The notes under the pieces were generated by a model, which ran no database searches, was not told where the DNA came from, and worked only from the letters and a program-made list of their open reading frames with translations. 64,000 nucleotides of DNA from Phoebastria nigripes (lineage: Eukaryota > Chordata > Aves > Procellariiformes > Diomedeidae): the NCBI GenBank assembly GCA_035582835.1, contig JAYKAV010003091.1:174638-238637 (forward strand). Direction: 5' to 3'. A program made the translations under genes and the position numbers. Of this stretch, positions 3,962 to 43,190 are shown piece by piece. The first letter of the stretch is position 1. Each line of letters opens with the position of its first letter.

Positions 3962-6900
3962 TCAATCGGAATAATCGCTATCAAAAACCAAAGAGCAACA
4001 GGCCGTATTCTGCTGAGCCAGCGTATTGACAGGACGTGGTTTCTTGGAGCCTGCAGGGCTTTGGAGGCTGAAGCAGCTCATCTGTTTTTCACCTGTTGTG
4101 CTGTACAGGGAAAATGTATTCTCCTGGGGAGAGGAATCCCAGAGATTCCTTTTTACACTGGAAACATTTGTTCTTTTTTTCATTTCCAAACTTCTCTTTC
4201 TTCTGTCTGCAAGTTGTTGCAGGCTTTTATGGGAGCATGGCACTGGTGGGAAATTCTTTGTAAGCCTTGGCTGAGCACTGCTGAGGATCTGCTCATTGGG
4301 AGCTGCAGAAACCGGGTTAGAGCTTCCTAAATTGAGAGCAACCGTGTATTGGGGAAAGCAATTTTTTCTGGAGCTTTCCAACTCAATAATCCTGTTTGCC
4401 TTCCTTTGCTTCAGCCCACCGTCAGCACATCGAGAGAGCTCGCCTTTTCTCATAGCGGGGCAAGTTTTCTTCCTCCCCGTTGCTTTATTCCAGGGGATCC
4501 TTCCTGGCCTCTGTTTTGCTTTATTCCCTACAGCTGCATTCTCCACCTCACGGTCTGTGGACGCGTGATTGTCTCTTTGCCCAGGCATATCTTTTCTTAC
4601 AGAAAGGTGGCAAACTTGAGGCTGCCTCTGTTGTGACAGTGTCACAGGTTCAAGTTGTCTGGTGGCTCTCCTGACTGCCTTCCTCAGTGGAGTTGGTAGA
4701 GGCACCTCCTGTGGTACAGGACAGTGTTTCTTCTGACTACCCCCCAAAAAGTGACTGTTGGCGCAGCACACACAAGAATGGTCAGCACAGCTCTGTGTTT
4801 CCAAACCATATTTCACCTCCTGCAAAGAGGTGCAGGAGGTACCTGCACCTGTGCCACACACCACTGTAGCAATGGGGCTGACTTTCCCTCCTGAAGCTGT
4901 GTCTAGGTCACCCTGAGGTGTGCCATCCCCCGTGACCTGGTTCCTCACAGGGGAGTCTCCGTGCTGCTCCCCCACTGCCATGCAGGGGGGCTGAGACCGA
5001 CCCGAGGAGCTATAAACGCCCCTGCCTTGGCAACATGGCCAGCGTGTGTTCTCCTCACCCAGAGCACAGTCCTGGCATGGGCCAGGGGAGGTCTGGGAAG
5101 AGTTATCTGCCATGTGAGGGGGGAGTCTGGCACTGGAAATGAATGTGTGCAGCTCAGCTAAGGCATTAGGGAGCTTCCGGAAGCCTAGTTCTTCACACAG
5201 CTTCAGGTGCTGATCACTCAGCTGAGCTGGCAGCGACTCCAGACCCTCCTTCAGCAGCTGAACACTGGATTTCACATCCAAGATCTCCACATCTTTCTGG
5301 GGAGACAGCGAGCAGAGCAGAAGCAGTAAGCAACACATTAAAAGGTGCAATAATAGTATTCNAACAAGAAACTTATAGGTACTGTGTGTCAGTTAGACCC
5401 CTTAATTTGGGTATTGACCCAAAGATTAGCAATTCCTATCTCCCTGTGTAATACATATTCTCAAAATGTCCCACAAAAGTGAGAGATTTGGGATTGGGGC
5501 ATACCCCTATCCCACTGTGTGCCCCCTCTCCCAGGAGTGCTGCCTTCTCAAATGCTGGCGTGACACATCCTTGCCGAAAGCAATTCTTGCAGCAGGGTCT
5601 CTGGAGAAACCAGACCTGTCCAGGAGGTCTCTGACAGTTCATTCTTTTGTCTCTGACACCCACTTGTTCTTTTTTGACCTCTTTTTTCCTCTCCCTGGGA
5701 AACCATCCAGCCGAAGGGACAAAGCACTGCACTTCTGTGAGATGCTCTCCCCTCGCAGGCACACACTGCACCACCTCCTCCAGCGAAGGCATGTGCCAGC
5801 GTGAGGAAGCGGTGCTCCATCGTGGCCTGCCACGACAGGGCACTGTTGGGCTCCCCTCTCACTGACCAGGGTTTCATCAGAGCTTACAGCACTGTTAACC
5901 AGCGCTTGGGTAAGCACCAGTCAGTATCTGGCCTAGAATTAGCATTTTAATATGTCTTTCCTCCTTCGTTGTAACAGGAGCAGTCTACTTTATAATCCAC
6001 CACTCGAAGGCAATTTAATATTCAGTTAATATTTTGAAAAAGTGGGAGAAATTCAGAATGAGGATTCAGAATAAAAGATTAATTTCTGCACTTACGGCTG
6101 CAAGTCTCCTCTCCATCTCCAGCAGTGCCTGCTCTGTTTGGCTTTTATCTGTCAGAGCTTTCAGCACTGAGCCACAGTGACTTTGAAGAGCGTCTTGCAC
6201 TAAACAGGGAAATCAATAAAAAACACATTTGGTCTTTCATTTATAAATGTGAATAAAGTACTATCAATACTATTGCAACTTCCTCCACGGCTTGGCATGA
6301 AATACTTTGCTGTGCTGTGCAACCATAGTGATTTGCCCGCTGAGATCTCCCCGAGCCCCAAGCGATGAACAATAGGGTAGATGTTTAATGCAAAGCACTT
6401 GGAATTTGTAAGATGCCGAGTATAGGCCAAACCTCATTTACTGTGCTCTATTAATATGGCAGCTGGAGATGAAAGGCTATGCGAAGCTGCAAAACTTGGT
6501 TGGCTCAATGCAAGGAAGGCTGAGGCTCAGTTGTCTGCCAACTTCACAACAGGCATGGCCAGGGGAGGGGGACCCCAATATATCTGACCCACCCCAGTGT
6601 AACTGACCCTCTTCTGTAACCAGCTGATGGTAAACAGGAGCTTGAACGTGTGGTGGGAAGAATAGCATTGCTGATAACAGGAAGGAGATGCAAGAGGTTC
6701 ATGGCTAAGAAGTGCAACCAGAGACTACATGACAGAAATGCACAGGAGGCTGGTAACCGAAGGAAAGCTGCCTGAAGGGATAGTGGGAAATTATGAAGGA
6801 GTGTGCAAAAAATTGGGATTTCCAGTTGCTGGACACAGGAAGAGATGGGGCCAGAAAACTTCTGAACCAGGCAGCTGTGCCCAGTGCTTGGGCAGCTGCA

Positions 6901-30052: not shown

Positions 30053-33000
30053 TCAGGGAGCCTCGCGCAGGCATAGAGCCTCGACGGCGCCGCTGGGGCC
30101 CTGGGCCACCCCNCCGATGACAAACAGCAGGCTGGGCGCCGGGCAGCTGGAGCAGGAGCAGCGGCCAGTGGGCATGGGGGGCAGCGGCTCCCACTTCTTC
30201 CGTGAGAGGCTGAACCCTTCCACCGAGTCCAGCGGGCAAGACTGGTTCCCTGCAGGAGATGCGATGGCATCAGCCCCCCCGCAGCCCTCCCAGCACCCCA
30301 GGGTCTGNCCTTCCCCCTTCACACGCCTTTGATGCCCCAGCTGGAGTCCCCAGTGGTGGCTGGTCCCCAAGCCCTGGGCTGCGGGGGCTCTGCGATCCCA
30401 GAGGCAATTAGCAGGGGCACAAAAGGATTAGCGGCATCCCCACAGGGAGGCCTGCTGGCACCGATGCCACACTGTGGGCTCTGTCCCCGCACTGGCACCC
30501 CGCAGCCATCACCAGGGAATAAGGGAGGGCAGCTCCAGCCCCAGCAGGGCTCAGAAGCAATGCCACGCCACAGGGATCCGGCCAGCACCACTTGCCTTCC
30601 CCAGCACCTCCTCCTGCCCTGCGGCATTGCCCCAGGCAAGTTCGGAGGGATCTGGCAGCCCTCGCTGCAGGGCTGGGGGTGTTGCGGCTGGCGCCGGGCT
30701 CCCCGAGCAGCCCTCCCCGCTGCATCCCCACTGCTGAGTGACAGCGCTAACCTTTCTCCAGCTCTCTCAGGAGAGGGATGTGGCGCTGCAGCCCTGTGCA
30801 GTGGGGCTTAGCCAGCGTGGGCTGTGCGAGCCCGGCACGCTGCACACCAAGCTGGGAAAGCCTGGCTGGGGGGCNAAAGGGGCAAGTGGCTTAGTGGGGG
30901 CAGCCCGTGGGGCAGGGCGGTAGGGTCCCCCCAGCACTCAGGGGGCACAGGAGCAACACGGTGGGCAGAGCTAAGGCCGCACAGCTGCGGAGGGTGTTGC
31001 AGTACTACCATGGTTTTGCACAGCCGACCTCCCTGCCGCCACACAGGTCACTGATGTGCCACAAAGGACGGGAATGGGAACACGGCCACATGCCTCCCCC
31101 AGACTTACCAAGGCCGCCCACGGCCACCACTCTTCCTCCTAGGCAGCCNGCCACGAAGTCGGCTCTCTTCTCCCTCATGCGGACAGCGCGGCTTGGCTTG
31201 CTCCATGCACCTGGGGGTGAGAGCGTGTGAGCATCGCCCGCCGGGCCTCCTCTCCGTGGGGCAGGCGTCTGCGCACTGAGGCCAGGAGACACCCGGGCTA
31301 ATGGCACCCCAGGAACGCAGGGCAGGACCTGGCATGGGTGTAAGGGGCTGATGCCCAGAGCCCGGATGAACCGTGTCCCTCAGGCACGGACACCCCTCAC
31401 CAAGACCCAGGGAGGCATCTTAGACCTGCTGGGAATGCTCCCATCCCACCCAGGGNCACGGAGCTCACCCTGCGTGGGATCGAACATCTCCACGGTGTTG
31501 ACGAAGTGGGGACGGGAATAGAAGTTGTGGGGCCCTGGCTGCTGCAGCCCCCCCAGGCTGAAGACGATGCCGTCGGCCACGGCACAGGCGGCGAAGGCGC
31601 GGCGGCTGGGCACGCTGGGGTAGCGCGTCCAGCTCCTCGTCTCCAGGTCAAAGGCCTCGAAGGCGGTGACAGGCAGCTTGCCCTGCCGGCCCCCTGTGCA
31701 TAGAGGAGATGCTGCAGCTGCCAGTGCCCCGAGCCGGCACCGTTGGTGAGCTCAGCAAGCAGGGTGGGGCCTGCCGGCTGCAGTGATGGGGTAGGAGGGC
31801 AGCACAGAGCCACCCTGGGGTGCACCAGGTCCCTCGGTCCGGGGAGGCAGTGGAAGGAGAGGGCAGGGGCAGGGGGGGATGCTCAGCTCGCCCCAGCAGC
31901 ACCTACCCAGGACAAAGATCTTGTTGCCCTGTAGGAAGGCGGAGGCTCCGTAGCAGGGGGTGGGCATGGAGGGCAGGGGCTGCCAGTGGTCCTTCGCCGG
32001 CTCGTAGACGCGGACCAGTGCCTGGGGAGAGGTGTCTGCACCCATTCCCCCCAGCGCGTAGACGGCTCCATCTGCAAAAGAGGCGGCGGTGAGGCAGGGA
32101 CAGCCATGGGCAGCGCCGTGGGGCTGGGAGCCCCCCCATGCCCTCCGGGGCAGGCAGCGCGAGTGCTCCCGAGTCCCACAGCCAGCTGCCGCTCTGGGGT
32201 GGCCGGGGGACGCTGAACATGGCCAGGCCTGAGGCTGGCAGTGCCCTGACCCCACTGGGACCCCCTTGCCCCCCTCTCCGCCCCATCCATCAGGCGCAGA
32301 GTGGAGCACAAGGCCATCGGCTCTAATTATTCTCGGCAGTACCATCTCCCTGGAGACACCATGGCAACACAGCCATGCTGCCAAATCCTGCTCCTGTTCC
32401 CGGTGCGGCTGGCACCCCTGCCCGCTCCCACCGCTGCCCTGCTGGCCCCTGTGCCCTGCCCACCCCGCTGCAGCCCAGGGCCATGCCACAGCATCCCCAG
32501 CCAGGGAGCAGANGTGGGCACCACGTATGGCACTGACCCCGGCCCCCAGCACACGGGCTGCCAAGGCTTGGAGGCTGTTCAGCAAAGTTTGGGCAGGAAT
32601 CACAATGTGCTTGGCGCACAGCACGCTGAGCTGGGCTGGAGCAGGGCACTTGGCCGCCCTGGCACAGCTCCTGGCCAGGGCAGCTGGGGAAGGCTCCCAT
32701 GCCCGGAGGGGCTCTGCATTGCCCAGCCCTGGGCTGCAACAGGGCTGCTGGGGCAGGAGCATGACCCTGCCATTAAACAGCAAGTCCGGCTGCTGGGCGA
32801 AAGCCTCGTGCTGCATCCCAAGCAGCAGTAGGATTCAAATCCCACCTGAGCATCCCTGACACCTGCATCCCCACTTCTCTGGACAGTAGAGGTACTTGCT
32901 GCTGAGCCCCATCCCCAGCTCTCACCTCTCTGCACAGCTGAGATGCCCATGGAGGGCTGAGCCAGCGCCGCCTTCTTCTCCCACTTGCCCTCATCCACGT

Positions 33001-33298
33001 GGTAGACCTCGACAGACGCGAGGGGGCTCTGCGCTGCGTCCACGCCGCCCACCACCAGGATCTGCTTGCCCAGGGCGAGGGCAGCGGCGCCGGCCCGTGG
33101 TGTGGGCAGCGGCGGGAGTGTGGTCCAGCGCTGGGACGGGAGGTCGAGCACCTCGGCAGCGCCCAGGGCTCGCCCACCGCCCCCACAGCCGCCCAGCACA
33201 AAGAGCTGCCCGTCACGGTGCGCGGCGCTGCAGTACACGCGCCGCGTGGGCATGGCGGGGAAGGCAGCCCATGCGAAGGCGCCCGCGCCCGCCGCCAT
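30053..33298 (-). CDS. KLHDC8B: KLHDC8B, kelch domain-containing protein 8B, complete, 5 coding exons
   Basis: Exons in transcript order are 33298-32926, 32071-31907, 31693-31469, 31210-31109 and 30249-30053. All are GT-AG, and every intron is in phase 1. They give 354 codons including the stop, so 353 aa against 354 in human (from memory). Kelch blades show as Gly-Gly pairs after a hydrophobic strand: VLGGCG, VVGGVD, ALGGMG, VLGGRQ, SLGGLQQ, AVGGLG and VIGGVA. The long signature QPGPHNFYSRPHFVNTVEMF in exon 3 identifies KLHDC8B. The N at 31149 falls in GCN (Ala) and that at 30113 in GGN (Gly), so neither affects the protein. The family is an all-kelch beta-propeller; human KLHDC8B locates to the midbody and is linked to cytokinesis and familial Hodgkin lymphoma. 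The start ATG has G at +4 and the first kelch strand follows it directly. Confidence 0.96.
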
Positions 33299-33395
33299 GG
33301 GCCGGCTCAGCCGCCCCGGGGGTCTCCGGGCCCTGGCCCCACCGTGCCGCCCATCCGGCCCGGCTTGGTGCTGGCCCGGCTCTGCCCACCGCCTC

Positions 33396-34139
33396 CTGNG
33401 GGGAGAGCACCTGAGTCAGCGCCCAGGCACCCACCGCTGCCCCTGGCCCCAGCGAGCCGACTCCCCTCGGTGGTGCGACAGCCCCCCACTCCCCAGGGCT
33501 CCCCACCTGCACCCACTGGGGCTCCCATTCCCTGGGGCTCCCATTCCCTGGGGCTCCCAATGCACAGCCCGCACCCACTGGGACTCCCACTCCCCAGGCT
33601 CCCTGCCTGCACCCACCAGGGTTCCTGCTCCCTGGGGCTCCCTGCCTGCACCCACTGGGGCTCCCGCTCCCCAAGGTTCCCGTACCCCGGGCTCCCGCTC
33701 CCTGGGGCTCCTGGTGCACAGCCCACACCCACTCGGACTCCCACTCCCCAGGGCTCTCTGCCTGCACCCACCGGGGCTCCTGCACCCCGAGGCTCCCGGT
33801 GCACAGCCAGCACCCACCGGGNCTCCCGCACCCCAGGGCTCCCGGCTCACAACCCGCGCCCACCGGGCCTCCCGGTCCACGGCCCGCACCCCCACGAGGC
33901 TTCCGCTCCCCGGGGCTCCCGGCGCATAGTCCAGACCCCCCGAGGCTCCTGCTCCCGGCGCGCAGCCCGCAACCACCGGACCGCTGCTCTCCGCGGCTCC
34001 CGCTGCACAGCCCGCATCCCCCGGCGCTCCCCGAGCTCCCGCCCGCAGCCCGCACCCCCCGGACCGTCGCTCTGCCGGGCCCGGGCTCCCCGCGCCGCCC
34101 CGCTGCCGGGAGCGGGGCAGGGACCGCGGCCGCGCTCAC
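33396..34139 (-). other. KLHDC8B: Predicted 5' UTR intron of KLHDC8B
   Basis: A CTCTCCCCNCAG acceptor (AG at 33397-33396) precedes 97 bases of untranslated exon and then the ATG at 33298. A strong AG|GTGAGC donor lies at 34139-34134. Together they define a 744-base intron filled by a minisatellite. A non-coding first exon is expected just right of 34140. Transcript evidence is lacking. Confidence 0.55.
33440..34060. repeat. Degenerate GC-rich minisatellite in KLHDC8B 5' UTR intron
   Basis: Imperfect tandem units of roughly 40 bases are built from GGGGCTCCC, TGCACAGCC, GCACCCAC and CTCCCCAGG words. About a dozen copies can be followed, with divergence increasing to the right. On the KLHDC8B sense strand the array is G-rich. 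Long open frames across it on both strands are by-products of the repeat. Confidence 0.85.
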
Positions 34140-34440
34140 CTCTCCGCCCGCTCCGCCGCTCTCCCCGCCGCTCCGCGCCGCCGCCCGCGCCGGGCCCGCC
34201 CGCTGCTGGTGGGGGCGGCGCCGCGCCCGCCCCGGCCCCCCCGCCGGGCTCCGCTCCCCTCCGCCCGGCCCTCCCGGGGCCCTCGGTGCTGCTGCCGGCT
34301 CGCCGTGCCCCTGCCCCGTTCACCCCGCCGCAGGAAAAGGGGCTGGAGAGACCCCTCGGTGGCAGCCGAGAGCGGGGCCCCCGGCCCTGCGCTCCCCAGC
34401 CGCACGCTGCCGGTGCCACCCCAGCACCGGGCTCACGGGG
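34134..34440 (-). promoter_or_regulatory. KLHDC8B: CpG-rich KLHDC8B promoter and non-coding first exon
   Basis: Dense CpG sequence with GGGGCGG-type GC boxes surrounds the predicted first-exon donor. There is no TATA box. The CpG density falls off near 34450. Confidence 0.45.
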
Positions 34441-35154: not shown

Positions 35155-38100
35155 TCACTGTCCATCCCACCGCTGGCTTGGGGTATCCTTCTCCATGCAG
35201 GCCAAGTAGCGGTCGTAGTTCTCCTCGCACCTCCTCACGCAGCGCAGGAAATAGTCCTCGTCAGCAATGGCCTCCAGCAGGTCGGTCTGCACCAGGCAAA
35301 CGTCGTACAGCTCCGAGGTGGGAGCGTGCCTGGGGCTGCTGCTGCCCTGCTCCAAAAACACCTGCAGGGAACGAGCAGTGCGCAGAAGCACTCGCACCCT
35401 CCACGGGCAGCAGTGCCAGGGCAGTGCCCAGCACGAGCACAGAGCCTGGTAGCAGAGAGCAGAGCCCTCCTCCTCGGCCAGGCGCCTTCACGCTGGCTGT
35501 GGGTCGGTGGCAGAGGGCAGGGGCTCCCATCTCCACTCCAGCGGTAGAAGATGAAGTTTCTCCAGATTTCCCCTCCCTCCCATGAGGCCCCTTTGGCTCA
35601 GAACCAGCTCGTCACATACATGGCTGGGCCTCCCCTGAGGAATGGGCCACACCACGCAGCTGGAAGAAAACGGCTCTGAGGAGCAGCCGACCCCAGGAAA
35701 ACCTCTGCCAGCCACTCTTCCTTTGGCTGCCACAGCACAGGAGGGAACAGGGACTTCACCTTCTGATCTTTACCATGGCTCTGCTTAAGGCCACCTGGCA
35801 ATCTGTTTCCCTCCTAGTGCTGCTCTGTCACTGTCACTGACACGGGGACAGCCCTGCAGAGCTGGTGATGCAAGAGGAGGGGAAGCTGGCATCCAGCCTA
35901 CTGATCCTGGCTGCAGGACAGCAAATTCCCAGCAGCAGGGATGAGCCCTGCTGGCGAGATGCTCGGCAGCCACCAAGACCCCAGCGAGGTCTGCTGCCAC
36001 CATAACTCGATCCTACCTGTCTGATCCGGTGTGGGGGGAGCCCTGGGGCTGGCTGCAGAGCTGCCCTGAGACAAGCTGAGCAGCCTGACTGACCAGCCAT
36101 GCCAGCTACAGATGGCGAAAGGAGGAACTCCGTGATCAGGGAAACAGCCCGAGGCTGACATGCAGCGACTAGAGCTGCACGAGCCACGCTCCGGCTGCTG
36201 CAGACATGCAGGCAGCAGCTGCTGCGCGCAGGAGCCTCGGGCTCTCGGCAGAGCCATCCACATTAATTCACCTGAATCAGGCACAGCACAGACTGAAGCC
36301 TATTCCTGACAGGTCTGCTCTGGGCAGTGACAACTCCTGCCACCAGCTACGGGCTGAGAGAGCTTGTATAAAAGGGAATATACAACGAGCATCTCATCCC
36401 TCGCCACTCCCCGGCTGCCTGGCAAACGCTGTCGACCATTCACCGGCTGCTGCAGGTTTCCCCCTGCTGTGCTGTCTCCTCCTGGATGGAAACGGACAGG
36501 GGTTCAGGCTCGCCCATGGAGCTGCAGCTCTTGTTCGAGCATCGACAGTTGTCCAACTGCCAGGTGCATTTCTGTCTGCATAAACGTTCCCTTTTCCAAG
36601 TGCTCCACCACAAACACTGTCCTTTCAATTCAGTGCCACAGACGAGCTGCGACCGCGCGCCGAGGCTGGCTGGCCTGCTGCCATTGCCACTGACACCAGG
36701 AGCGGGGCTGACTCACCCCTGTGGAGCAGAGGCACTCGGCAGTGAGCGCAGGCAGCCAGCACCTGCTGCGCTCTGCTGTCGGCCAATCTCACCCTCCCCA
36801 CGGGCAGCCCCACGCATTGCCGCCACTGACGCCGGTGGCGCAGGGTGCCGTGACACTGGGGCTACACCTTGATCCCCCTTTGCAGGCTCACACTCGTGCA
36901 AAGGGGACAAAACATGCCTGACCTCGCTGGGGATACCCCCAGCGCAGGCAGCTGGCACCGGAGGGCCCTTCAGCCACCTACCTGGGGATGAACAATGGTG
37001 TCTGCATCATCCAGCCGGATGTTGTCATCGATGAAGATGTGGTGAATGCCAGGATCGTGGGGGTCGATCCACAGGGGCTTCCCACCCTGGGAAGAGAACT
37101 GATTTCTGGCCCACCTGAAACAGCAAGTGGGACAAGGAGCAGTCAGGGGAGGGAGAGGGCAACAGCTCTCGGGTAAAGGCAGACAAGGCTGCACTGTGGG
37201 CTCTGGGCAACCCTGTGAGCCGGGGAAGTGTGACGGAGACCGTCCTGTCTCTCTGCCTGCTGCTGCTGCTTGTGAAAGAGAAGCATTTTGCAGCAAGGTG
37301 ACAAATCAGGGGGTGTTTGGAGAAAAGCAGGAGGTACACCAGGTAATGGAGACCTGGGGAAAGATGTGAGAGCCCCATCAGGCTGCCCATAGGCAAAATG
37401 GGGAGCATGTAAGTAACAAAGACCTCAAAACTAGGAGCTATCCCAGACCGGGAGAAACTCGGAGAATCACACAGGAGAGGAGAAAATGCCCAATCCACTT
37501 CCTCAGTGCCCTGCTTCTCACCAGTCAAAGTGGTCCTGGAAGCCTCCAATTCCCTCAAAGGAGCTGAAGTAGTTGTAAAGCTTTCTTTCATCTTCCCGGG
37601 TGGTCAGTCGCTCTGCTCCCCTTGTCAGCACCACCTCTCGCTTGCTGCAGCGTATCTGGCCAGGGGTGAGGTCCACAGGGAGCTGCAGGACCGCAGAAGG
37701 CAGGAGAGGAAAGGTTTCCAAAGCAGACAGGTTGTTTCGTGCATTGGCAGAGACAACAAGCAGCAGGGTGGAGACTCCCCACCACCATGTGGGAGGACGG
37801 TGCTGGGGAGATGACAAGAATAGGCATGGAACCCCCTCAACCAAAAATCATCCCCTCCCATGGGAAGGAAAGGAATGACCTCCTGGCTGCACGCTGCCTC
37901 CGTTTCAATCTCTGTTCCCTGTCAATGCTCTGAGGAACAACTGAAGCAGCTTCTGAAGCTCATTCCCAGCGTTCCTGCCCGGTGTGCTGCTGGGGGGAGA
38001 GCACGGCTGCCATCGGCTCTGAGCCAGGGAGCCCAGCTCTGCTGCAGCCGCCCCTCTCTGGGAGAAGGGATGCTCTGTCCAAGCCGGGATACCCCGAGAG

Positions 38101-39131
38101 GAGACCTTTCCCACCCAGGATCTGCACACACACGTGCTCCCCCCCGGCTAACAGCTTCTTCCCGAGAAGCTGGCTGTGTTTCCTCTCCGCAGAAGCCGGT
38201 GCTTTTAAAAGCGGGATGGCCAAGTGGCTCGAGAGCAGCCTGACGCGGGGAGCTCCGCGCAGGCCATCCGGCTGCCCTTCTCCAGCGCGCGGGGGTCCCC
38301 CGGGGTGCCACTCACCACCACATCCCGCAGGGCAGGGAACTGGGGGTGCTGCCCGGCCAGGGCGCAGCTGACGGCCCGGAGGGCGCGGGGCAGGTCTGTG
38401 CCGAAGGTCCTGAAGACAACGGCGAACGCCCTCCCCTCCCGGTGCAGGGTGTCCAGGAGGCGGAAGAAGGCAGGCAGGATCAGGTGGTAGCGCTTGCTCG
38501 GTTCCCCCTGCACCGAGAAGACGTCGTGCGGCCGGCCCGGCCACTCCAGCAGCTGCAGGTGGCGGGCGTGGAGGCCGCCGAAGCACCGGCCCGGGCCCGC
38601 CTCGGTGAAGGTGGGGTCCCGGCCGTGGCGGCTGTAGTAGCTGAGGGCGCCGGGGCAGGGGGGGCCCAGGGAGGGGCGGTCGCTCGCCCACTGCCACTCG
38701 CCTGCAAGAGAGGAGGGCGCTCAGCCGCCGCCCCCGCCGCCCGCCCGGCCCCCGCGGGCACGCTGGGAGGGGGCGGCCGCGGGGGGCCCCCCAAAACGCC
38801 GGGGAAGCCCCCGGGGAGGGGGGGGGGGATGCGCGTCCGTCCGTCTGTCNNNNNNNNNNNNNNNNNNNNNNNNNNNNNNNNNNNNNNNNNNNNNNNNNNN
38901 NNNNNNNNNNNNNNNNNNNNNNNNNNNNNNNNNNNNNNNNNNNNNNNNNNNNNNNNNNNNNNNNNNNNNNNNNNNNNNNNNNNNNNNNNNNNNNNNNNNN
39001 NNNNNNNNNNNNNNNNNNNNNNNNNNNNNNNNNNNNNNNNNNNNNNNNNNNNNNNNNNNNNNNNNNNNNNNNNGCCCGGGGCTGCGCCGCGGGGCACCGC
39101 CCGCCACCGGCGCCCTGACCGCCGTTGCCAT
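35155..39131 (-). CDS. Uncharacterised HAD-fold-like protein, partial (first exon runs into assembly gap)
   Basis: Four exons with consensus borders and matching phases are 38701-38316, 37682-37522, 37114-36982 and 35361-35155 (stop). Together they encode about 295 residues. The first exon must lie right of 38702. An ATG at 39131, reading MATAVRAPVAGGAP into the N gap at 39073, is a plausible start, and the phase requires exon 1 to end with one base of a codon. Exon 38701-38316 holds FAVVFRTFGTDLPRAL, a hydrophobic strand ending in Thr like HAD motif II. Exon 37114-36982 holds HHIFIDDN, like HAD motif IV (hydrophobic strand plus DD). Motif I, carrying the nucleophile Asp, would fall in the missing exon. 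The C-terminal exon is helical and charged. I do not recognise a named gene. Phosphatase-like or inactive HAD is an inference from motifs only. It sits head-to-head with CCDC71. Confidence 0.75.
38850..39073. other. Assembly gap (224 N)
   Basis: A run of N lies in the most CpG-dense part of the window, next to a homopurine/homopyrimidine G-run at 38815-38829. It removes part of exon 1 or intron 1 of the HAD-like gene. Extreme GC is the likely reason the sequence failed here. Confidence 0.95.
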
Positions 39132-39189
39132 GGACACCGCGAACGCGGCGGGGGCGCAGGTCGGGGTCAGGGGGCGTGGCCGGGGCGCC

Positions 39190-39310
39190 GCGGGTGGGGG
39201 GCGTGGCCGAACCCGCTCCGTTTTGTGGGCGTGGCCCCGGTCCGCGGAAGGGGGCCGGAAGCGGAAGTGGGCGGTGCTTCCGGCGCTCCGCGGGCGGCCA
39301 TGTTGGAGCG
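39190..39310. promoter_or_regulatory. Bidirectional CpG promoter with ETS cluster and YY1-like site
   Basis: Between the HAD-like gene start (39131, leftwards) and the predicted CCDC71 first exon (rightwards) there are GGGCGTGG boxes near 39200 and 39228. Several ETS/GABPA-type GGAA motifs follow: GCGGAAG at 39244, CCGGAAGC at 39255, CGGAAGTG at 39262 and the inverted CTTCCGG at 39277. A YY1-like GGCCATGTTGG lies at 39296. This is the usual make-up of a TATA-less, housekeeping, two-way promoter. Confidence 0.6.
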
Positions 39311-39352
39311 GCGGTCGCAGCGCAACGGCGGGTGCGGGTCTGGCGGCGGCCG
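39284..39352 (+). other. CCDC71: Predicted non-coding first exon of CCDC71
   Basis: A CCG|GTAGGT donor at 39353 follows the ETS/YY1 cluster. The matching acceptor is TTTTTCCAG ending at 41957, 39 bases before the CCDC71 start codon. The left border is a guess at the transcription start. Confidence 0.4.
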
Positions 39353-41996
39353 GTAGGTTGGGGCCGGCGGTGCCCGGGCCCCGCGCTCCCGGGCGAGGGC
39401 GCTGCCGAGCCGCCCGGCGGGGCGGCCTCCGGGCGCTGGAGGCGGAGCCGCGGCGCTGAGGGCCCCGCCCCGGCCCCCGCCCCCCCGGGCCCGGGAGCCG
39501 GCGCGGGGCCGAGCGGGGGGGCCGCACCCGCTGTCTGCACCAATCACCTCCCCGCAGCCCCGTAGGGAGGGCACCGGCCCCGGGCGGCTCTCCCCGCCCT
39601 GGGGCCCCTCCGGCCGGCGGGCCGAGGGTGCCCGGCCAGGGCTCCCGCCGGCCCCTCCTTACCGGGCCGAGCCTGCGGAGGGGTGTGCGAGGGGAGCGAG
39701 GGACCCGCGCTCGGGAAGGGGCGTCTCATCCACCGAGGGGTGGGCCAGGAGGAGAGGCTGAGCCGGGGGCTGCCCGCCCCGGCGGCCTCCACCGATCCCT
39801 CCTTGGGTCTCCACGCCAGCCTCCATCTCCCCAGGCTGCCCCAGGCCCGCGTCTTGGCCCTGCCAGCAGGCAGCTTGCCCCTCCGGTGCACCCGGAGAAG
39901 CACCGCAGAGCCCTTTCCTCAAGCACTGCGCCTGGACAGCTGGGCCTGGCGTCGCTCGAGCATTGAGTGAGGGTCCTGCCAGCGCTTTGCATCCGTGCCA
40001 GGAGCGCTGCGGGCCTGTGGCCCCGTGGCACTTTAGCCAGGGCACGTCCCCCGCTAGCGTGTCAAGTGAACAAACTTGCTGTTGGGTGGACAGGCTGTCT
40101 GGGGGTGTGCCTGCTTGTGGCCGGCTTTCGTTCCTACTACAACTTGCACTGCACAAAATGAGACTGGGCGGATTGATGTTGAGATGTCCTGTCTCCGCTG
40201 AGATGTCACAGCCTCTCCGTTCAACATCAGAATATCCCTTAAGGTGTCCCAGCTGTTCCTGGGCTTGCTGCAGCCTGAAGTTCTCGGCAGAAGATGATCC
40301 ATTTAGCAGCCTCTTGAACGTGCGTTCTTAGTTGTATTTCTCCCTCTCTACCAGCTCGGGATTAAGCTTTATATCCTTGCTGACTTCGCTGTGCCTGTTA
40401 CCACTTGTTTACTTTGGAGGTGGCAAATCTCACTGCTGGCCGATGGCGCTGGCCGCGGCTCTGTTGGAGCACTTCCCTGCCTGCCTCCCTCCCCTCCTCC
40501 GTGGGAGATCCCCCGTGTGTCGCAGAGCAACTGCATTATCCTCCTCCAAATCCCTCTTCTGCCGTGACGTCTGCAGAACACTTGACTGAGATTAGTCTGT
40601 CATGCGGATGCTCTTACCCCCCCGCTGACCTGTGCTTCTCCTTCTGCGGCTGCTTTCGGCTTGTGTCCCTTCCCTGCTTGTGCAGCCGGCGGTGGCANGG
40701 GGCACTGGTCTGGGGCCAGCACTCCCAGGCTCCGGGGTTGCGGTGAAACCGGAGTCCTGGGAGGGACATCGAACACGAGTAGTTCCTTGCTCTGTCTGCT
40801 CAGGTGCTAACTTTTCCATCACAGCTTTCTTGCTTGTGCACTGCCCTCTCCAACAGTGTCTCCAACACCTTCCACATTTCCCTGAAAAGGATTTTTCACT
40901 GAATCCTCCTTATTATTTTGAGAGATATCAGTGAAGCTAAAGATTTTATAACTTCTCAGTGCAGCGTCCAGCTGCGGAGCTGGCGAGGTCGCCAGCTCAG
41001 TGCAAGAGGATCGGAGTTCTCCGGGGTACATCACAAAGTCCTGCCTGGACTGCTCTTCGGTGCCTATTTTTTTATTTAAAGCAATAATTAGTGCTTTTGT
41101 CCCGGGCAGACAGCTGTGTAGTGCCCTGAGCATGATCCGAGTGTTGTCCCTCAGGCCATTGTACACTTGGCCCCAGTGATGTGTGTTTCCTTCATGCCGC
41201 CCTGCTTGAATTTCCTGCTTCCTCCTCACTTGGCAGCGAGTGCCCTTGGATCAACACCAGTTTGCTGTGACAGCAAGTTGCAGACCGTTGTTCAAACAAG
41301 GGAACAGCAAGGAGCGGTGTTGCCTTGCCACAGCGTTCGGCATCAGTGAAGCACAACTGAAATAGCCTCCAGCTCTGCTGTCAGGTCTTCGGGAGGATGC
41401 TGCAACTTTGGCAGGGACTCAGAATCAATTTTTGAGCAGAATCAATTAGGAAGCTGGAAAATTGAACATGACACTGGGATAGATTTGAGGTGCTCAGGCT
41501 GCTTAGCGTTGAGATGGCTCGATCGTGGTGTTCTCGGTGCGTGTGCAGGGAGAGGGTTCAATGAAGGGCTGCTTTACCAAGGGAAAATGAGATCTGGTTA
41601 CCCAAAGCTGGGGCCTGTCAAACTCAAACTGGAAACGAGCTGCAGATTTCACTGAGTTAACCATTGGAACCCTTCATCTTGGGATGGGTTGGATGGGATT
41701 GTCTGAAATCTTTGTTTAGGTTTGAGGATATTTCTGCGAGAAATGTTTTAGTCTGACTGCAGAGATAAATCAGTGGCAGGATTGTCTTGATGATGCTTCT
41801 AACGTGGGTTATGCCCAGAATCTGACCCAATGTTTGTGAGTAGCCATGCCTGGGCATAATGGTTTCAGGTCCCCACTTAAAAATGCAAGATGATTTCAGT
41901 TGCTGTGAGCTAACTGTCTTCTCTCTCCTTTTGAGGTATCAAGGGTTGTTTTTCCAGTAATTTGGACCTTTTTGAAGTGCCCGCTTGCCTAATGCC

Positions 41997-43190
41997 ATGA
42001 ATATTGCAGTGAACAATGTGGAAGAAAAAGCTGTCCATTCCTGGTCGAGAATTTCCTCTGCAGGACAGAAAGTGCTGGAGGAAGCCCTCCGAGTCTTCAA
42101 CCCGATGTCCAAGGACCTTTCGGACACAGAGACCCAGCTGGTGGCCTTCATTCAGGGCCTGAAGGAGGAGGGCTACCAGCCCACAATTCTGAGGAGTAAG
42201 GATGTGTACGGGTACAGCTCGTGCACAGCAGACACACCTAGCCAAACAAAAGAGAGCACCCCGCACAACTGCACTGCTGCTGCTGAGTCCGCTAAGAGTC
42301 CGGCTCGAAACACCGCAGCCGTGGCAAAGGTGTCTGCTTCGCCCACCAGCGTTTCGGTGAACTCTTCGAAAGTCTCCGCTCAGCCCGTCTCTAAGGGGGA
42401 TTCCACAAATCTCCTCTTGAGCTCCTTGAAGCAGACAAGATCCGGCACGTCCAAGGCCACAGCAGTGGGCTTCCCTACAAGCATGTATCCTGACGTGTAT
42501 CCAGCCATGAGACTGTCGGTGGTTCTGGAAGCTCTGGTGCCACTGAAAACTACCGCGTCCTGTTTGGAGTCCAAGTACACTCAAGGGCGTCTTGGGATCT
42601 CGCCCTCGGACCTTAAACTCCTCAAGGCTTCAAGTCCGCCAAGGCAGTTTTCTTCAGGCAAGACCACTAAAATAACAGAAGGTAAGGGGTACAAGCGTTT
42701 GATAAAGAAAGCACCGGATTCTGCCACCCTTGCTTTAAATCTTCTGAAGGGACCAAAGGGTGGAGTGCTGCAGGAGAGCAATGCTTGCAAAGCCTCGGGA
42801 GTCCTCAATGGGAGAGTCACAGGCAGCTCGTCCCAGGGCTGCACCACAGCACAGCAGTCCAAGACCTTGAAAATCAAAAATAAGGAACCTCTGGTGGGAA
42901 AAACAGAGTGGAAGGACAGCAGCACTTACCGGGAGAGCGTTGGGCAGAAGAGGAGAAGAGCTACAGAGGCAAGAGAAGCACCACAGAGGAAGAAAGCAAA
43001 TACCATTCCTGTCCGAAATAAATCTCGACGGGCTCAGAGCACTTTGAACCTGCTGAAATTCCGGGCCATCAAGGTGGGCAACTCTTCTTCTGATGATGAA
43101 GTGAGGAGGAGAGCACAGAAGATTCTTAGGGTCAACCTGTCCCCTGTGATCCGAATTCAGCCCTTGTCCCACTCTCACAGTGTTCCCTGA
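41997..43190 (+). CDS. CCDC71: CCDC71, coiled-coil domain-containing protein 71, complete single coding exon
   Basis: The 397-residue protein is uninterrupted in one exon, as I recall for human CCDC71. The start is the ATG at 41997 (GCC before it); an in-frame upstream TTG extends the frame but is not a likely start. The N terminus carries the family's most conserved segment, EEKAVHSWSRISSAGQKVLE followed by FNPMSKDLS, QLVAFIQGL and QPTILRSKDVYGYSSCTA. A second conserved block, TNLLLSSLKQ through VGFPTSMYP and YPAMRLSVVLEALVPLK, lies at about residues 132-190. The C-terminal block has LLKFRAIKV, SSDDEVRRRAQKILRVNLSP and VIRIQP. The middle is basic, Ser/Lys-rich and probably disordered; KRRRATEAREAPQRKK could be a nuclear localisation signal. 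Its function is unknown. The Ala/Lys repeat region that I recall from mammals is absent, making this copy shorter. Confidence 0.96.
   Translation: MNIAVNNVEEKAVHSWSRISSAGQKVLEEALRVFNPMSKDLSDTETQLVAFIQGLKEEGYQPTILRSKDVYGYSSCTADTPSQTKESTPHNCTAAAESAKSPARNTAAVAKVSASPTSVSVNSSKVSAQPVSKGDSTNLLLSSLKQTRSGTSKATAVGFPTSMYPDVYPAMRLSVVLEALVPLKTTASCLESKYTQGRLGISPSDLKLLKASSPPRQFSSGKTTKITEGKGYKRLIKKAPDSATLALNLLKGPKGGVLQESNACKASGVLNGRVTGSSSQGCTTAQQSKTLKIKNKEPLVGKTEWKDSSTYRESVGQKRRRATEAREAPQRKKANTIPVRNKSRRAQSTLNLLKFRAIKVGNSSSDDEVRRRAQKILRVNLSPVIRIQPLSHSHSVP

Follow-up and report, generated by a model that had tools for sequence, protein, structure and literature searches.

An uncharacterized gene between KLHDC8B and CCDC71 in Phoebastria nigripes is predicted to encode a haloacid dehalogenase-fold protein with asparagine at the usual acid/base position

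A 64,000-nucleotide stretch of the Phoebastria nigripes genome (contig JAYKAV010003091.1, positions 174,638–238,637; the window hereafter, with position 1 its first letter) carries the gene order IHO1–KLHDC8B–HAD gene–CCDC71–laminin. The gene of interest, here called the HAD gene after the haloacid dehalogenase (HAD) superfamily, had been proposed in an original prediction made from the letters alone, and its position between KLHDC8B and CCDC71 is borne out by Pfam matches in the window. The reading that we favor, with a probability of roughly 0.7, combines a gene with a HAD fold and a disabled acid/base site. The parts of the gene are listed below, P0001 being the protein of Accipiter, the closest match to the window protein among those listed.

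38850–39073, minus strand: run of N, 224 bases, most likely holding coding exon 1 with the start codon and motif I; P0001 residues 1–49 are unmatched in the genome
38316–38701, minus strand: coding exon 2, from splice sites and translation; genome match E 7.4e-84; insert at the C1 position and motif II strand FRTFGTDL
37522–37682, minus strand: coding exon 3, from splice sites; genome match E 4.9e-27; beta-hairpin insert, then GGFQDHFDW
36982–37114, minus strand: coding exon 4, from splice sites; genome match E 3.8e-22; GGKP lysine and motif IV strand HIFIDDN
35155–35361, minus strand: last coding exon, from a splice and translation check; genome match E 3.8e-35; C-terminal helix and TGA stop

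All four exons are preceded by an AG acceptor and the first three are followed by GT donors (GTGAGT, GTGAGA and GTAGGT). Their phases join without an internal stop and the frame closes at the TGA, yielding a product of 295 residues that is 93.9% identical to P0001 over 294 columns; the four exons with continuous phase that had been predicted were therefore upheld. A search of the whole genome (1.2 Gb, 1961 contigs) with P0001 returned five rows, namely the four exons and one stray (E 0.16), and no second copy was seen. With four exon matches genome-wide at E 7e-84 to 4e-22, the gene is real, intact and far beyond chance. One of the match rows (L004) crosses an in-frame TGA; it spans positions 37506–37712 and so extends past both ends of the exon (37522 and 37682), the exon itself being stop-free.

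The encoded full-length protein is about 345 residues long, and in full-length bird proteins the N-terminal region reads MSG...LVLHVDLNNT. Since residues 1–49 of P0001, which carry motif I, found no match anywhere in the whole-genome search, and a run of N lies at the expected position, the first coding exon most likely sits inside that run. A coding start near 39131 had been proposed. Compared by eye, the window translation immediately past the N run looks like the segment that precedes MSGG in the Porphyrio model P0124. The true start therefore probably lies downstream of the ATG near 39131, which is probably not coding.

Neither Pfam nor NCBIfam provided a family model for the protein, returning scattered noise only, and a Foldseek search against PDB gave no match at E ≤ 0.001. 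The AlphaFold2 model is confident, with a pLDDT (predicted local distance difference test) of 93.5, and VIA fold alignment placed HAD proteins at all 50 of the matches listed, and at 49 of 50 for a distant member, the matches being classed as HAD by title or by known classification. In several of these alignments the nucleophile Asp is in register with HAD nucleophiles, as judged from the range starts and the residue numbers of those nucleophiles, with 2wm8 a misfit. HAD phosphatases of the MDP-1, Fcp1/SCP and CTDNEP1 types were among the best-ranked fold matches, and the Asp was in register for 1u7p, Fcp1 and SCP1. Structure prediction thus supports a HAD Rossmann-like core in which motif I is followed by a large insert, at the position of a C1 cap. 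That the protein instead has another Rossmann-like fold, its motif likeness having arisen by chance, is very improbable given 99 HAD proteins among the 100 VIA matches listed, the nucleophile register, and the occurrence of the HAD motifs in proper order in both vertebrates and distant relatives. Several weaker matches were set aside. DUF5735 (E 0.023, one of 14 members) and the nucleotidase TIGR02254 (E 0.022, one of 24) were treated as noise and not used as evidence, and the PDB profile matches to nephrocystin-1 (E 0.75) and RGS16 (E 0.3) were taken as chance. FAP129, the sole PDB sequence match of the window protein (E 1.1), disappeared when a profile was used and was likewise attributed to chance; this inner-microtubule protein of the cilium differs in being a repeat protein with Mn and PYG motifs, as described in PMC10973386.

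Inspection of the active-site motifs (residue numbers are those of P0001, and motif I is read in relatives, the window's own copy lying in the N run) agreed with this fold. In the model, strand 11–17 ends at Asp17, the predicted nucleophile position of motif I. Strand 145–151 ends at Thr151 (motif II) and strand 258–264 at Asp264, followed by Asp265 (motif IV); T151, D264, D265 and N266 are each at least 90% conserved in a 24-row alignment (A4). Between motifs II and IV lies Lys247, the candidate for motif III, which is invariant in A4 together with L138, R150, F152, G153, D155, D231, W236 and G246. Across 14 vertebrate rows, H15 and D26 do not vary. The model and the VIA alignments therefore back the original HAD-like reading of a motif II Thr and a motif IV Asp-Asp, and the DxD or DxN motif that had been anticipated upstream takes the form DxN in the relatives.

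Asp at the second position after the nucleophile (+2) serves as the general acid/base in HAD phosphatases. A loose motif I pattern placed before motif II matched 179 of 266 collected proteins, 176 of which have Asn at +2; two of the other three have a true motif I with the Asn further on, and the third has none. Every one of the 178 proteins with a recognizable motif I therefore has Asn at +2. This Asn is followed by Asn or Lys in 170 proteins and by Ser, Asp or Gly in the other eight; no DxDxT-like string occurs among the 266. The 87 proteins that did not match the pattern were, judged by eye from lengths and names, largely fragments, truncated isoforms or models with odd N-termini. The Asp at +2 that marks canonical DxD phosphatases and phosphotransferases is thus missing, and we have not filed the protein as a canonical HAD phosphatase. 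The notion that the gene is enzyme-like holds insofar as HAD fold and motifs are predicted; it is weakened by the replacement of the usual general acid/base by Asn.

A close parallel is the D10N variant of beta-phosphoglucomutase (beta-PGM), which likewise combines a HAD core, a cap after motif I and an Asp nucleophile with Asn at +2. It differs in being engineered and not natural, in its low identity (9–15% in the L. lactis rows), in its other cap and in its known sugar-phosphate substrate. According to PMC11283535, this Asp-to-Asn change in beta-PGM mimics the protonated acid and makes proton donation impossible. For the protein studied here, substrate binding with slow or blocked turnover would be expected. 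A laboratory mutation used to trap HAD complexes is the natural motif I of this family, which offers a testable case for a HAD protein without the acid/base.

We infer a mechanism in which a phosphorylated ligand would be held beneath the cap by Mg2+ and the surrounding loops, with Asp17 as the acceptor of its phosphate. Protonation of the leaving group and hydrolysis would be slow without the acid/base at +2, and the protein might then act as a slow phosphotransferase or an aspartyl-phosphate switch, unlike a normal phosphatase. The binding of metal and phosphate, the slow chemistry and the role of the cap share this conditional status, as does the loss event considered below, and taken by itself the proposed chemistry is tentative and falls short of even odds. 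About as likely, the protein would be an active HAD phosphatase or phosphotransferase whose acid/base at +2 is replaced by a different residue. Asp231 is a candidate, as it is invariant across A4 along with R150, D155, W236, G246 and K247, and H15 and D26 are others, lying near motif I. P-type ATPases and dehalogenases are HADs that manage without Asp at +2. Nearly as likely is a pseudoenzyme, in which the HAD core would bind a phosphorylated ligand or a partner without chemistry, a behavior ascribed to TIM50 and other degenerate HADs; against it, the retention of the nucleophile Asp, the Thr, the Lys and the Asp-Asp pair would be unexpected in a dead enzyme.

A search with the window protein identified 303 proteins at E ≤ 0.001, the best 120 of which come from birds, a crocodilian, turtles, lizards, snakes, amphibians, ray-finned fishes, the coelacanth, sharks, rays and marsupials. 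Many of the fish and shark orthologue records are labelled si:dkey-32e6.3 and 'uncharacterized', in line with the status originally assigned to the gene, and by sequence the window gene is orthologous to the si:dkey-32e6.3 group; the zebrafish record itself is absent among the matches listed. The bird protein shares 57–58% identity with its shark or opossum orthologue. When the window gene was placed in a tree with 36 proteins chosen from the 266, it grouped with Accipiter (support 100/99); monotremes and marsupials form one clade (100/98), and the vertebrates form another (99/99). Contrary to the accepted phylogeny of these species, the coelacanth joins the sharks (96/92). Several forks are left open, and long branches lead to the distant rows.

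The gene had been thought lost or moved in mammals. Monotremes and marsupials keep it, and the claim narrows to an apparent absence from placentals. When the opossum protein was used as the query, 241 matches were obtained, and the best 120, reaching E about 1e-105, comprised nine marsupial rows (seven species), platypus and echidna, followed by reptiles, birds, amphibians and fishes. No protein named as placental occurs among these 120, of which 11 are without an organism name, in a search of proteins only. These same limits leave room for a gene that has moved, diverged strongly or escaped annotation in placentals rather than being lost. We consider this improbable. Six other marsupial rows scored 583–875 bits and platypus 448, and two partial koala rows reached 452 and 408; within the best 120, the top shark scored 407 and the top ray-finned fish with a name 393. 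Since marsupials and platypus outscore shark and fish, an ordinarily diverged placental orthologue would be expected in this list. At only 48–52% identity, the 11 unnamed rows resemble fish and frogs. Vertical inheritance through jawed vertebrates with an apparent loss on the placental branch is the simplest reading. The platypus and echidna models (P0123 and P0125, both isoform X2) are without the usual C-terminal sequence after motif IV; these shortened ends are probably alternative isoforms or a matter of annotation.

The gene was already in databases as uncharacterized; the present analysis contributes its fold assignment, the DxN form of motif I across the family, its deep relatives and its apparent absence specifically from placentals. 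A strongly constrained gene of jawed vertebrates thus has no name, family model or function on record, and it is easily overlooked because human and mouse apparently do not have it. Its retention in marsupials and monotremes, with none found in placentals, makes it a candidate for studies of lineage-specific loss. A literature search found no published work naming si:dkey-32e6.3 or LOC416055, which is not proof that none exists, nothing relevant by title, among the papers listed, linking KLHDC8B/CCDC71 to placental loss, and no paper linking haloacid dehalogenase to loss in eutherians as against marsupials. In the main text of a paper on genes lost in placentals (PMC10416458), as far as it was accessible, neither the HAD gene nor its neighbors are named.

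Relatives were also found well outside the vertebrates. A profile built from cut pieces gave 184 matches at E ≤ 0.1, and the best 120 include many vertebrate fragments and isoforms; the distant relatives among them include Peronospora belbahrii, an oomycete (E 5e-15), together with a protein from EukProt (E 1.4e-22) and environmental proteins. Comparison of the vertebrate and distant-relative profiles gave a probability of 99.9% (E 5.9e-31) with the motif regions aligned; the P. belbahrii row is without the DDN stretch, as expected of a truncated model. Some of the environmental relatives combine signal-peptide-like N-termini with D-[IV]-N-K-T-[IL]-I. Members with such N-termini include P0217, P0239, P0241, P0247, P0249, P0258, P0259 and others, one of them encoded on a 931 kb contig. 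We at first supposed a bacterial source for these members and dropped it, as no relative was confirmed in bacterial and archaeal species genomes scanned with two alignments; nor was one confirmed in viral contigs scanned with three. In the viral library the only fold matches at E ≤ 0.001 were giant-virus proteins of Fadolivirus, Clandestinovirus and Orpheovirus (BFVD models), with E-values of 2.0e-14, 4.4e-8 and 7.6e-5 in one search and 2.9e-13, 1.9e-12 and 6.3e-8 in another. These uncharacterized proteins are shorter than the HAD gene product, at 236–293 residues, share 13–20% identity with it, and were compared by fold. A broader proposal would unite vertebrates, other eukaryotes, giant viruses and secreted proteins in one natural HAD family with a fixed Asn at the acid/base site, acting as a long-lived aspartyl-phosphate switch or phospho-ligand sensor and lost wholly in placentals; we regard it as doubtful.

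The neighboring genes were assigned from Pfam matches as follows.

41997–43187, plus strand: CCDC71 coding exon, head-to-head with the HAD gene; PF15374 CCDC71L, E 3.9e-171, residues 8–390 of 397
31383–33415, minus strand: KLHDC8B kelch exons, downstream on the same strand as the HAD gene; Kelch_1, E 9.7e-22, 5.3e-7 and 2.3e-9 in three open reading frames
3965–5392, minus strand: open reading frame matching IHO1; PF15771, E 1.8e-14
55 to 62.5 kb, plus strand: open reading frames with laminin domains

In human, CCDC71 would be directly followed by KLHDC8B according to the original prediction. Outside the window the neighborhood was glimpsed through a single hoatzin record (P0202), named 'kelch domain-containing protein 8B', which includes HAD-gene sequence and fits an adjacency of the HAD gene and KLHDC8B in another bird. 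Other bird gene models also merge the HAD gene with other sequence, that of Gymnogyps being named myotubularin-related protein 14, and the Mycteria model seems to read through an intron (fused or read-through records: P0003, P0004 and P0202). Judging from these models, the gene is often mis-annotated in bird databases.

The interval that leads from the HAD gene towards CCDC71, at 38705–39250, is 83% GC with 50 CpG and is broken by the N run. As the two genes are head-to-head across this CpG-rich segment, a bidirectional promoter common to both is plausible there. A scan of 38600–39600 for bacterial-type promoters and terminators found none, which is uninformative for a bird, and an Rfam scan of the window gave zero matches. 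GC-rich minisatellite-like arrays with periods of 12 to 77 lie at 33516–34203, just upstream of the KLHDC8B exons.
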